Virus record (IMG/VR): IMGVR_UViG_3300025582_000026
Location: 1 to 26,013 of that record
Reading direction: 5' to 3' (one strand)
DNA from: a virus
Length of the DNA stretch: 26,013 nt
Below are positions 16,550 to 23,883 of this stretch, piece by piece. The notes below the pieces were generated by a model. The model saw nothing but the letters and a program-made list of their open reading frames with translations. It did no database searches and was not told the origin of the DNA. The number at the start of each line of letters is the position of its first letter. Within the stretch, counting starts at the first letter, position 1. The translations under genes and the position numbers were made by a program.

Positions 16550-16624
16550 TGGATCCAACTGTATGACTCGAACGCACATCTGATTCGTTACAAATGAACC
16601 GTTTTACCATTAAGCTAAGTTGGC
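16550..16624 (-). tRNA. tRNA-Thr(UGU) with encoded CCA and several mismatched pairs
   Basis: On the minus strand a full cloverleaf can be drawn: acceptor GCCAACT with AGTTGGA, D-arm GCTT-AATGGTA-AAAC, anticodon arm GTTCA-TTTGTAA-CGAAT with anticodon TGT, a 5-nt variable loop, T-arm GTGCG-TTCGAGT-CATAC, then T and CCA. Total 75 nt. Four pairs are not Watson-Crick or wobble: G1-A72, C11-A24, A31-C39 and C52-A62. It is a threonine tRNA in type, but may be poorly functional or decayed. It begins 7 nt after a terminator hairpin. Confidence 0.75.
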
Positions 16625-20805: not shown

Positions 20806-21081
20806 CTATAGGTAAAATTTATCGTATCTATGTGGGTCGTTTTTTCCAGTTAGTAGTTTTTTGCCATTAGTTTCCTGTGCCATTGAGCGAAATAAGGACG
20901 GCATTGGAAGAAATGGACTCTCTGTTGTGGCTATTATTCTTCGCGCTGCTGTCATTACCACTTCGAACGTCAAATCGTTAAGAGCTTCCCAGTATACTTC
21001 CATTCTCTGCGGAGAGGGTTTTGTATCAGTGGTAATTGACGTGATGTAAGAATAGAATTTCGCAAACTCAGACTTTTCCAT
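20806..21081 (-). CDS. G39P-like helicase loader
   Basis: 91 residues, ATG at 21081, overlapping the replication protein gene by 14 nt with AGGAGGTAGAAGGAA upstream. EFAKFYSYITSITTDTKPSP, MEVYWEALNDLTFEVVMTAA and RRIIATTESPFLPMPSLFRS match the layout of small phage helicase loaders (G39P / Loader family), in which an 'I.T...FPP....' tail follows helices. It would bring the host replicative helicase to the origin bound by the neighbouring initiator. Assigned by pattern plus gene order. Confidence 0.7.
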   Translation of the reverse strand: MEKSEFAKFYSYITSITTDTKPSPQRMEVYWEALNDLTFEVVMTAARRIIATTESPFLPMPSLFRSMAQETNGKKLLTGKNDPHRYDKFYL

Positions 21082-21910
21082 TTCCTTCTACCTCCTCATG
21101 CATTGCTAACCATTTTGCGGTTATTTGATCTTGTAGGCTTAATCCGGGTGTAGTAGACTTGCTCCAATCAATATTTCTTTTTGGTATGTCTTCAGTTGGG
21201 ATATAATTTATAAAATCTTCAAAGCGTTTCTGTGGTCCTAGAAATGTAGATGCTTGCAGTGTGAATTGCTGATCTTGTCCATTTCTTGATAATGCATAAT
21301 TTTTTGATGCTGTGATTAAATCGTCAGGGTTTGTCCTATTTTTAATTAAAGTGTTCCATGTTTTGAGTGCTGCGGTCTTTGCTGTTTTCTTAGGATACAG
21401 ATTCCAGAATTCTTCAAAAATATATATATTATTATCCTTTATGGAATTATCTTTTATAGAAGGATCAATAATGGAAGTATCTTTGTTGGGCGATTCTGTC
21501 CTAACCCTTGGGCGATTCTGTCCTAAGGGTTGGGCGATTCTGTCCTTAGGGTTAGGCGATTCTGTCATAAGGTCATAGTCTTGCAATCCGTCAAGTTTTG
21601 CTGTAGGAGATATGTAAGAGAAGTTTCCTTTCTTCCCTTTTCTGACGTTTGTAAGCGTTCGTAGTAATAGGAAGTCTTTTCCGTATAGTTCAATTTTTCG
21701 CTTTAGGTTTCGCTTGCTACCCACTATCGGAATCTGTTCGAGAAGGTACGTGTAATTGATCCACATGAACTTTATACCGCTAAAATCCTTAAACTCCATA
21801 GTTGCCGAAGAATACATATCCTTGATAGTTCTAAGGATAAAAGCATCTTCTATGCTAAGTTTGTTCTCGATCAACTTCTCTTGCTGAAACCCAAGTATGG
21901 TGTATTTCAT
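21068..21910 (-). CDS. Phage replication initiator / replisome organiser
   Basis: 280 residues, ATG at 21910 overlapping the upstream TGA. The N-terminal 100 residues look like a winged helix (LSIEDAFILRTIKDMYSSATM, WINYTYLLEQIP, KRNLKRKIELYG). Residues 105-155 are a low-complexity linker coded by iterons and 15-bp repeats (TESPN, DRIAQPLG, QNRPRVR, TESPNK). The C-terminal part has EFWNLYPKKTAKTAALKTWNTLIKN, DLITASKNYAL and TLQASTFLGPQKRFEDF, typical of initiators of Bacillota phages. It would bind the origin within its own gene and cooperate with the helicase loader at 20806. Confidence 0.85.
   Translation of the reverse strand: MKYTILGFQQEKLIENKLSIEDAFILRTIKDMYSSATMEFKDFSGIKFMWINYTYLLEQIPIVGSKRNLKRKIELYGKDFLLLRTLTNVRKGKKGNFSYISPTAKLDGLQDYDLMTESPNPKDRIAQPLGQNRPRVRTESPNKDTSIIDPSIKDNSIKDNNIYIFEEFWNLYPKKTAKTAALKTWNTLIKNRTNPDDLITASKNYALSRNGQDQQFTLQASTFLGPQKRFEDFINYIPTEDIPKRNIDWSKSTTPGLSLQDQITAKWLAMHEEVEGNGKV
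21411..21576. other. Putative phage replication origin (iterons plus AT-rich tract)
   Basis: Four 22-bp iterons (21489-21576) adjoin an AT-rich tract, 21411-21487, in which 21416-21435 is entirely A and T. The tract also holds three imperfect 15-bp tandem repeats at 21439-21453, 21454-21468 and 21469-21483. The arrangement inside the initiator gene copies the lambda origin layout: iterons for the initiator, AT-rich DNA for unwinding. Confidence 0.75.
21489..21576 (+). repeat. Four 22-bp iterons
   Basis: GGCGATTCTGTC occurs at 21489, 21511, 21533 and 21555, each exactly 22 bp apart, with variable 10-nt spacers (CTAACCCTTG, CTAAGGGTTG, CTTAGGGTTA). Because 22 is not a multiple of three, the encoded peptide changes frame from copy to copy (TESPN, DRIAQP, QNRP, TESPN). 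This argues for selection on DNA, not protein. Confidence 0.92.
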
Positions 21911-22068
21911 ACTTTTGTACCTGAATTAACCGCTATCTGACTAACTTTCTTCGCCCAAAACCTTTCCATGATTGCTCGCTGTGCCTCTGGATTAGCCTTA
22001 CGCCATGCTCTTTTTAGTTCTGCTGATCTAGCCCTCTTTTGAGCTGGTGTCTTCTTAATTTCTGTCAT
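21907..22068 (-). CDS. Small basic protein (53 aa) at the start of the replication operon
   Basis: ATG at 22068 with a very good GTTGGAGGAATTAATAT site. It reads MTEIKKTPAQKRARSAELKR then AWRKANPEAQRAIMERFWAK, a basic helical protein that ends in an ATGA overlap with the initiator gene. The A-x-x-R-S-A-E-L-K-R-A-W-R repeat suggests nucleic-acid contact. Family not recognised. It is the first gene after the control region and its promoter. Confidence 0.65.
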   Translation of the reverse strand: MTEIKKTPAQKRARSAELKRAWRKANPEAQRAIMERFWAKKVSQIAVNSGTKV

Positions 22069-22101: not shown

Positions 22102-22118
22102 TTGCACAAGTTGTGCAA
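22102..22118. promoter_or_regulatory. Palindromic operator O1
   Basis: TTGCACAAGTTGTGCAA is a perfect 8+1+8 inverted repeat. It lies 10 nt after the TATAAT -10 of the replication operon and before its first gene, a place where a bound protein would block transcription. It resembles the operator at 22369-22383. Confidence 0.75.
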
Positions 22119-22294: not shown

Positions 22295-22368
22295 AAATCC
22301 TATTTTATGTGGTAATTTAATCAGCCCCTTTCTTGGCATATTATTCCTTCTTTAAGTATAGCATACCT

Positions 22369-22383
22369 TGGACAAGTTGTCCA
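22369..22383. promoter_or_regulatory. Palindromic operator O2
   Basis: TGGACAAGTTGTCCA is a perfect 7+1+7 inverted repeat, sharing the ACAAGTTGT centre with O1. It lies about 30 nt upstream of the -35 of the plus-strand regulator promoter. Confidence 0.7.
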
Positions 22384-22458: not shown

Positions 22459-22635
22459 ATGTCGAGAAAAAACCCAAAAGAGAATTTCGAGAGATTCCCT
22501 ATAATGATGCCACCCAGTCAATCGGCTAAAATTGAGGATTATCGGGCTGAGTTTAGGCCAGTTCCATCAAAAGGGGAGGCTATTCGTGATTTAATTGATA
22601 TGGGTCTAGAAGTATACTGGGAAAAGAAGAAGTAG
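22459..22635 (+). CDS. Small ribbon-helix-helix regulator (58 aa)
   Basis: The only convincing plus-strand gene. ATG at 22459 with TTAGGAGTGATGAA upstream. It reads MSRKNPKENFERFPIMMPPS (strand), then QSAKIEDYRAEF (helix) and SKGEAIRDLIDMGLEVYWEK, where S..EAIRDLI..GL is the typical second RHH helix. Such proteins form dimers that bind paired short operators. It is probably the regulator of the divergent replication operon or of itself through O1 and O2. Antitoxin-like alternatives exist, but no toxin gene is adjacent. Short length, below usual ORF cutoffs. Confidence 0.75.
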   Translation: MSRKNPKENFERFPIMMPPSQSAKIEDYRAEFRPVPSKGEAIRDLIDMGLEVYWEKKK

Positions 22636-22738: not shown

Positions 22739-23617
22739 TCACCCCACTTCTTTCTGCTTTTTAAGATAATCAGGCCATGCAACAGTCTTAAATACTGCTT
22801 TCATATTTACCCATCTAGTAAATTTTCTTTGATATGAGCTTGCCCTATCGAATGGCATAACGAACGGATCAACGCCTAATGACTTGAGCATTTCAACCCT
22901 GTATAAATCTTCATCTTCTGTTGTGTCCCATCCGATCAGCACATAAAACATTAATCTGTACGGCAACATGTATTTCTTGAGTATTGCTATTCCTGCTAAT
23001 ACTTCCTGTTCTGTCTCCATAGAGTCCCATGCGAATCTAATTTGTTTCCACGGTTTAACTTTAGACAAGAGTTTGGCTTTTTCATCATCTATGAGCCGAA
23101 TATCTAGCCCTTGGCTAAAGTCCGTTTTTATCTTGTGTTTGATGACTTGGTTGAGAATTAAATTAAAATGTTCACTATCTCCTGTTAAGTTGTTGTCCAT
23201 AATCATTAGATGCTCTTGACCTCTCCAGAATTGGTGAATGTCTGCTACTGGGTGAAGTTTACCCTCCTTCTTTGGCACGATGCAGAACCCGCATTCTCTG
23301 ATACATCCTCTTGTCGTGAATCCCATAGCGTAATCTGTGCCGTATAGAGAGTAATCAGGGTACGTTGTTTCTATTTCTCTAGGTAGCTTTATGTCTATGT
23401 CGTGGCCACTTCCCCCTTGGACAACTTCACAATCAGAGGGAAAGTAACTATACTCGTCTGTTGCCTTGAAAATCTTAGAAGAATATATTTTATCGGGATG
23501 GTCGAATAATGGAGCGTACATCTTTACTTCGTCACCCTGTGCCTTGTGATGTGTTGATAGCTTCATTAATGCAAGGTTAGGTATTTTGCTATCTACATCA
23601 ACTAGCCCTATATTCAT
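22739..23617 (-). CDS. Radical SAM protein with B12-binding-like N-terminus
   Basis: 292 residues from the ATG at 23617, with AAAGGGGCAAGCAC upstream; the longer frame to 23713 lacks a good start. Residues 1-85 (MNIGLVDVDSKIPNLALMKL, DEVKMYAP) resemble a cobalamin-binding Rossmann domain found in B12-radical SAM enzymes, without a confirmed DxHxxG motif. The 4Fe-4S cluster motif is RGCIRECGFC (C105, C109, C112), followed by MIMDNNLTGD and FSQGLDIRLID core strands. The enzyme cleaves S-adenosylmethionine to make a radical. Substrate unknown; a base or protein modification role is possible given SSB, DUF1599 and MazG neighbours. Confidence 0.85.
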   Translation of the reverse strand: MNIGLVDVDSKIPNLALMKLSTHHKAQGDEVKMYAPLFDHPDKIYSSKIFKATDEYSYFPSDCEVVQGGSGHDIDIKLPREIETTYPDYSLYGTDYAMGFTTRGCIRECGFCIVPKKEGKLHPVADIHQFWRGQEHLMIMDNNLTGDSEHFNLILNQVIKHKIKTDFSQGLDIRLIDDEKAKLLSKVKPWKQIRFAWDSMETEQEVLAGIAILKKYMLPYRLMFYVLIGWDTTEDEDLYRVEMLKSLGVDPFVMPFDRASSYQRKFTRWVNMKAVFKTVAWPDYLKKQKEVG

Positions 23618-23663
23618 GTGCTTGCCCCTTTCAAATATAGATCGTCCACATGATGGTTTTAGC

Positions 23664-23681
23664 GAAAGGGGGTTGCCCCCC
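23664..23681 (-). terminator. Hairpin between mini-protein and radical SAM gene
   Basis: GGGGG (23668-23672) pairs with CCCCC (23676-23680 or one on) around a 3-nt loop; the minus strand continues TTTCGCT. Weak T run, so perhaps a partial terminator limiting radical SAM expression. Confidence 0.35.
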
Positions 23682-23688
23682 ATGTGTA

Positions 23689-23883
23689 CTAAATATTTTC
23701 CAATGGACACCACTCAGGGAAAAGGTGTTTTTGAGTTGCCTCATCGTATTCAAGTCTCAATAATCTCGGATTGTATTTTCTGGATATTACTGCCTTACAT
23801 CTGCACTCCGCTATACTATTCGCTCTTTCTACGTTTGGGCAGTTGAAGCAACTTGTAACAACTGTTTGATAAATCTTGTCCAT
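23689..23883 (-). CDS. Cys-rich small protein (64 aa)
   Basis: ATG at 23883, TTTTAGGAGGTAATACC upstream. It has SCFNCPNVERANSIAECRCK and later FPEWCPLENI, a CxxC, CxC and WC set that suggests zinc or iron-sulfur binding. Directly precedes the radical SAM gene, so the two could work together (for example as substrate or carrier), but this is only inferred from order. Confidence 0.65.
   Translation of the reverse strand: MDKIYQTVVTSCFNCPNVERANSIAECRCKAVISRKYNPRLLRLEYDEATQKHLFPEWCPLENI

Follow-up and report, generated by a model that had tools for sequence, protein, structure and literature searches.

A putative lambda-like replication origin inside a phage initiator gene, with iterons that covary with the predicted recognition helix across the initiator family

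The stretch of viral DNA analyzed here (the window; 26,013 nucleotides of IMG/VR record IMGVR_UViG_3300025582_000026) carries on its minus strand a replication initiator gene, P0001 (21068..21910), that encodes a protein of 280 amino acids. The assignment comes from PHROG profiles: phrog_270, 'replication initiation protein', matches residues 52-239 with an E-value of 5e-19 and spans most of the protein, placing it in that family, and further matches are to phrog_26426 and phrog_1701 (DnaD-like helicase loader). A search of the protein against Pfam and NCBIfam returned no family, and the C-terminal domain PF09524 (Phg_2220_C) is likewise absent (0 Pfam families). An AlphaFold model built on an alignment of 53 sequences predicts with confidence (pLDDT about 95) that residues 1-110 (21581..21910, minus strand) form a winged-helix DNA-binding domain, with helices at residues 20-33, 53-59 and 66-78, strand at 40-50 and a wing of strand at 82-102. 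On the basis of the model and the covariation described below, residues 66-78 (21677..21715, minus strand) are the predicted recognition helix. Comparison with the PDB using Foldseek gave matches with weak E-values (best 0.07); those of high probability are winged helices, among them YodB, PadR and DnaD-N. Residues 111-155 (21446..21580, minus strand) are predicted to form a disordered linker peptide (pLDDT about 46-66), which is followed by a helical C-terminal domain (FEEFWNLYPKK..., 21191..21445, minus strand) matched by phrog_26426, phrog_9327 and phrog_1701.

Downstream of the initiator gene, a gene for a 91-amino-acid protein (20806-21081) matches phrog_10105, which has no function assigned in PHROG. 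Pfam gives no support for its being a G39P-type loader, and no lambda P-like helicase loader gene was identified, this adjacent gene being without a Pfam match. A 53-amino-acid open reading frame (21907-22068, minus strand; NPEAQRAIMERFWAKK) overlaps the initiator start, and a similar sequence lies directly upstream of the initiator in the relative L005. Upstream of the initiator operon, two similar 16-bp palindromes, 266 bp apart, at 22102-22117 (TTGCACAAGTTGTGCA) and 22368-22383 (TTGGACAAGTTGTCCA), flank a stretch of non-coding DNA; they are possible operators for a small protein (22459-22635, plus strand) that weakly matches a PHROG 'transcriptional repressor'. A Radical SAM domain protein (22739-23713, minus strand; phrog_9298, E 3e-84) is encoded between the initiator region and the SSB/Erf recombination genes, an unusual presence in a replication cluster, and a tRNA-Thr (tgt) gene (16550-16624, minus strand) lies inside the phage contig.

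The linker residues 111-155 are encoded by an array of iterons and by most of a set of 15-bp repeats. The array comprises four 22-bp iterons (21485..21572, minus strand), which we propose to be initiator binding sites on the basis of TRF, an exact-core search and synonymous constraint. TRF places the repeat at 21485-21572 with a period of 22, 4.0 copies and 87% matches. The core GACAGAATCGCC is identical in all four iterons (21489-21500, 21511-21522, 21533-21544 and 21555-21566, minus strand), and exact copies of GGCGATTCTGTC occur four times only in the whole window, at 21489, 21511, 21533 and 21555, with spacings of 22, 22 and 22. Likewise, the period-22 self-match score is 49.6, whereas shuffling the codons of the gene 2000 times gave at most 13.2. 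The original prediction of four exact cores at 22-bp spacing is thus borne out by both searches, and the spacing is strict within this gene. Along the array, successive cores are read in frames 0, 1, 2 and 0, so that three frames are used, and the encoded peptides are TESPN, DRIAQP, QNRP and TESPN; translation agrees with the earlier description of a rotating frame with these peptides as by-products. Tandem repeats therefore lie inside the initiator coding sequence, as in a lambda-type architecture, an assignment made from the repeats and their position and with binding as a prediction. As a single strand, the array has an ordinary hairpin potential (z -1.57), a search of the region for structured RNA using Rfam found none (its sole match is the tRNA at 16553-16624), and GC skew, a measure that carries no information in a one-direction phage fragment, has no sharp switch at the site.

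The array abuts an AT-rich putative DNA-unwinding element (21408..21484, minus strand). No 50- or 75-bp stretch anywhere in the 26 kb is less stable than the segment starting at 21408, and the AT content is 80% over 21411-21484, compared with 59% for the window, so that an easily melted AT-rich region lies next to the repeats, as in the lambda-type architecture. Within it are three 15-bp repeats (21431-21481, minus strand), GATACTTCCATTATT, GATCCTTCTATAAAA and GATAATTCCATAAAG, with a period-15 score of 16.2 against a null threshold of 9.8. The AT-richness and the three tandem repeats that had been predicted are therefore real, the repeats being imperfect copies. Because the 15-bp repeats of the window are in frame, they cannot separate selection on the DNA from selection on the peptide; the period is 16, and so frame-breaking, in L019, L083, L085, L086, L096 and L107. 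In 39 array-bearing genes, the mean AT content is 76.5% in the 60 bp that follow the array and 68.2% elsewhere in the gene, the former being higher in 35 of the 39; the array itself is more GC-rich.

We compared the gene with about 150 distinct relatives, mostly from clostridial prophages and phage contigs. A first set of 88 distinct genes came from viral contigs, GTDB genomes, a phage collection and clostridial genomes, and 61 more were added later; a class-level genome search yielded few new members. An array with 21-23 bp spacing is found at the same place in about half of the relatives, with a different sequence and a different peptide, and the core sequence has been swapped wholesale between family members. 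When all periods from 10 to 60 bp were scanned in the linkers of the relatives, peaks were observed at 21-23, at the doubles 42-45 and at 15, the period-15 signal sitting just 3' of the 21-23-bp array. Spacings of 22 and 23 bp often alternate, and some arrays have a 21-bp, in-frame spacing. Given the peaks at 21-23 and 42-45 and the 22/23 alternation, the spacing is about two helical turns and is independent of the codon frame. The strict 22 bp of the original prediction thus gives way across relatives to 21, 22 or 23 bp. In roughly half of the distant relatives, no array was detected in the gene; these include L151, L240 and L242, which have a standard helix of the same class and whose iterons may lie elsewhere. 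A clear 21-23 bp array is likewise missing from a group of genes with large proteins or a standard helix (L037, L078, L091, L110, L113, L151, L240 and L242). In a Fusobacterium-type gene (L015:3393-3572), the 22-bp array is immediately preceded by a 54-bp tandem expansion, in frame, that the closely related L014 lacks.

Synonymous change is very rare within the array. Between the window and L005, it was observed at 37 of 91 positions outside the array and 1 of 23 inside (p 4e-4); between the window and L006, at 52 of 81 outside and 0 of 9 inside (p 2e-4); and between L006 and L011, at 41 of 65 shared N-domain residues and 0 of 17 in the array (p=9e-7), these being pairwise tests, not all of them independent, with sequences in common, and some other pairs giving no significant difference. 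The array DNA is therefore under selection, the synonymous collapse being direct evidence, and it is the DNA rather than the peptide that is conserved. This is as originally claimed: synonymous sites are frozen in the array, and core sequence and peptide differ among relatives. The comparison of homologs proposed with that claim, which asked if spacing is kept while the peptide varies, gave the same picture, in that the 21-23 bp spacing is kept, the core and the peptide are replaced and synonymous change is suppressed. These data bear directly on the idea that what repeats is the protein, slippage having expanded a linker peptide. Such linkers are disordered and repeat-prone and some relatives have 21-bp in-frame arrays, as that idea would have it, but a period of 22 rotates the frame and yields differing peptides, many relatives alternate 22 and 23 bp, and the array is frozen at synonymous sites. 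We consider it extremely unlikely, and as the sole explanation of the window array a peptide-level repeat is refuted by the frame rotation and the synonymous constraint. If the origin reading is right, the same DNA has to satisfy two constraints simultaneously, as origin and as coding sequence.

The iterons of the relatives have dyad symmetry around an A-rich centre, often near-perfect (combined p 3e-8, centre included). Examples are TTGGGACAAAATGTCCCAA in L042, CGGATTTAAATCCG in L083 and L089, CGGTAAAAATACCG in L025 and CGACTCAAAAGTCG in L092. The window iteron, TTAGGACAGAATCGCCCAA, is alone only a weak dyad (p 0.81); it aligns with that of L042, and from this sequence alignment it reads as a decayed dyad.

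We tested for covariation between iteron similarity and residue identity, column by column in 34 genes, with the rest of the domain controlled and without use of the structural model. The columns that covary most with the iteron are 70, 67 and 74, and columns 71 and 68 likewise give high values. Block 64-73 has a partial r of 0.44 (0 of 5000 permutations), and the best 8-column block, 65-72, has a partial r of 0.51, in tests that control overall identity and, incompletely, phylogeny. The covariation peak, residues 64-74, coincides with the recognition helix that AlphaFold places at 66-78. Read by eye, the helices and half-sites fall into classes: D[TS]xYRR with CGGAT/A, DRxYR with CGGT, [NK]DxLRR with CGACT, AxLRRR with AACT, RNLKRK with GGACA and RNLMRK with TGACA. 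In a tree made without the helix, L094, with D and CGACT, has as its sister L095, with A and GAACT, and the same pairing is repeated by L092 (D) and by L096 and L077 (A). Likewise, the window has K70 and GGACA, compared with M70 and TGACA in L006 and L011; helix and iteron both differ between the window and L006 despite 81% identity, and L006 and L011 are only 67% identical, yet have M70 and the iteron in common.

Rules drawn from these classes were written before most of the hold-out genes were fetched, a few loci having been collected earlier. A rule is matched by 14 hold-out genes, 10 of which have an array and can be scored; the G765/G788 type of gene, which has a D..YR helix and lacks an array, falls outside the scoring. 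The predicted half-site is exact in 7 of the 10 (L142, L146, L149, L171, L189, L196 and L173), a count to which shared descent contributes. It is partly correct in L187 (CGGTT, where CGGTA was predicted) and in L241 (GATTTAAATCC kept, CG missing), and it fails in L239. A CGGA[AT]...TCC dyad is present in 10 of 15 arrays with D..Y[RK] helices and in 0 of 21 others (p 1.2e-5), a comparison made post hoc and by hand to which shared descent likewise contributes. The predicted binding of the iterons by the N-terminal domain thus gains support from covariation centered on a predicted recognition helix, and the binding itself stays a prediction from sequence and model. Some other phage or host protein, such as a repressor, a partition protein or a DnaA-like factor, could occupy the array in place of its predicted partner, the initiator; but the iteron sequence tracks a recognition helix encoded in the same gene, and we regard this explanation as very improbable.

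As judged from sequence comparisons, C-terminal domains are swapped freely among relatives. The window and L005 proteins are 92% identical in the N-domain and have the array in common, and their C-domains are unrelated; between L042 and L077, identity is 37% in the N-domain and 79% in the C-domain. The Phg_2220_C domain (PF09524) is present in 19 of 53 members. The window/L005 junction lies within the AT-rich repeats, where it would be expected to lie if recombination keeps N-domain and iterons together as a unit. We propose that the C-terminal helical domain is an exchangeable module that contacts the helicase or its loader. Taken together, we somewhat favor the view that a readable code links the recognition helix of the winged helix to the iteron half-site, and that the array moves together with the N-domain as a single specificity cassette, to which interchangeable helicase-recruiting C-domains are joined, so that origin specificity and incompatibility groups of uncharacterized phages would be predictable from sequence. 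If this is right, it offers a family-wide way of locating origins from sequence. To our knowledge, few origins have been mapped in phages of anaerobic Gram-positive bacteria. The natural near-swap pairs (L094/L095 and window/L006) would then allow direct tests of initiator-iteron specificity and of phage-prophage replication interference.

We conclude, with a probability of about 0.86, that the gene encodes a lambda-O-like phage initiator whose N-terminal winged helix binds four iterons in its own gene as the origin. We infer origin firing from the architecture, and the steps would be as follows. The N-terminal winged helix would bind the four iterons within its own coding sequence, each iteron, as a dyad (decayed here), probably being taken by two subunits. 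With iterons about two helical turns apart, bound proteins would be brought into line, wrapping or bending the DNA. Strain from the bound initiators could then open the adjacent AT-rich repeats, after which the C-terminal domain would recruit the replicative helicase or its loader. An unlikely alternative keeps initiator binding and makes the array mainly an autoregulatory or a copy-control/incompatibility site, with replication starting elsewhere. Repeats bound by plasmid initiators often double as control sites, and firing at the array is our deduction; against this, the array abuts AT-rich repeats at the melting minimum of the window, and it lies inside the gene, downstream of the promoter region, as in the lambda ori.

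The proposed origin resembles ori-lambda, in which the origin lies in the middle of the initiator gene O with repeats and an adjacent AT-rich melting region. Lambda has four iterons (six in Stx phages), imperfect 19-bp inverted repeats with A stretches that are bound by O (PMC7466680). The lambda iteron starts are annotated at 39034, 39054, 39078 and 39101, spacings of 20, 24 and 23, compared with 21-23 in the window family. Unlike in lambda, the AT-rich element is built of 15/16-bp repeats, and the iteron sequence differs. Direct homology to lambda O was not detected (N-domain hhalign probability 0.1, E 0.43). The term lambda-type therefore holds for the architecture and likely the mechanism, but not for sequence kinship, the N-domain profile having no match to lambda O. 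The SfV and mEp460 replication proteins (phrog_270) are distant relatives from named phages, with 26% identity over residues 49-232 and an hhalign probability of 77% on the winged helix. The closest published case that we found, in a search that took in little of the subscription literature and so leaves an earlier mention of the family possible, is fhv_0043 of Francisella phage KIRK, a Phg_2220_C replication protein with an internal lambda-like putative origin made of four repeats, an AT-rich region and a KDNNK peptide repeat (PMC7924643). The KDNNK repeat resembles the KDNSI repeats of the window protein; KIRK is a single sequence description from a Gram-negative host, and the likeness is one of architecture. 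JZEJJABK_CDS0057 of Fusobacterium phage phiFN37, annotated only as a hypothetical protein, has the same N-domain (49% over the aligned N-domain) and, like the window, a 22-bp array and 15-bp repeats in the same place, but its iteron core is ACCAAAACTCAAAATGAGT and its C-domain is another one. Thus, the arrangement of a lambda-like origin inside an initiator gene is already known and the initiator family is distinct; what is added here is a spacing rule for the whole family, the constraint at the level of the DNA and the proposed helix-iteron code.
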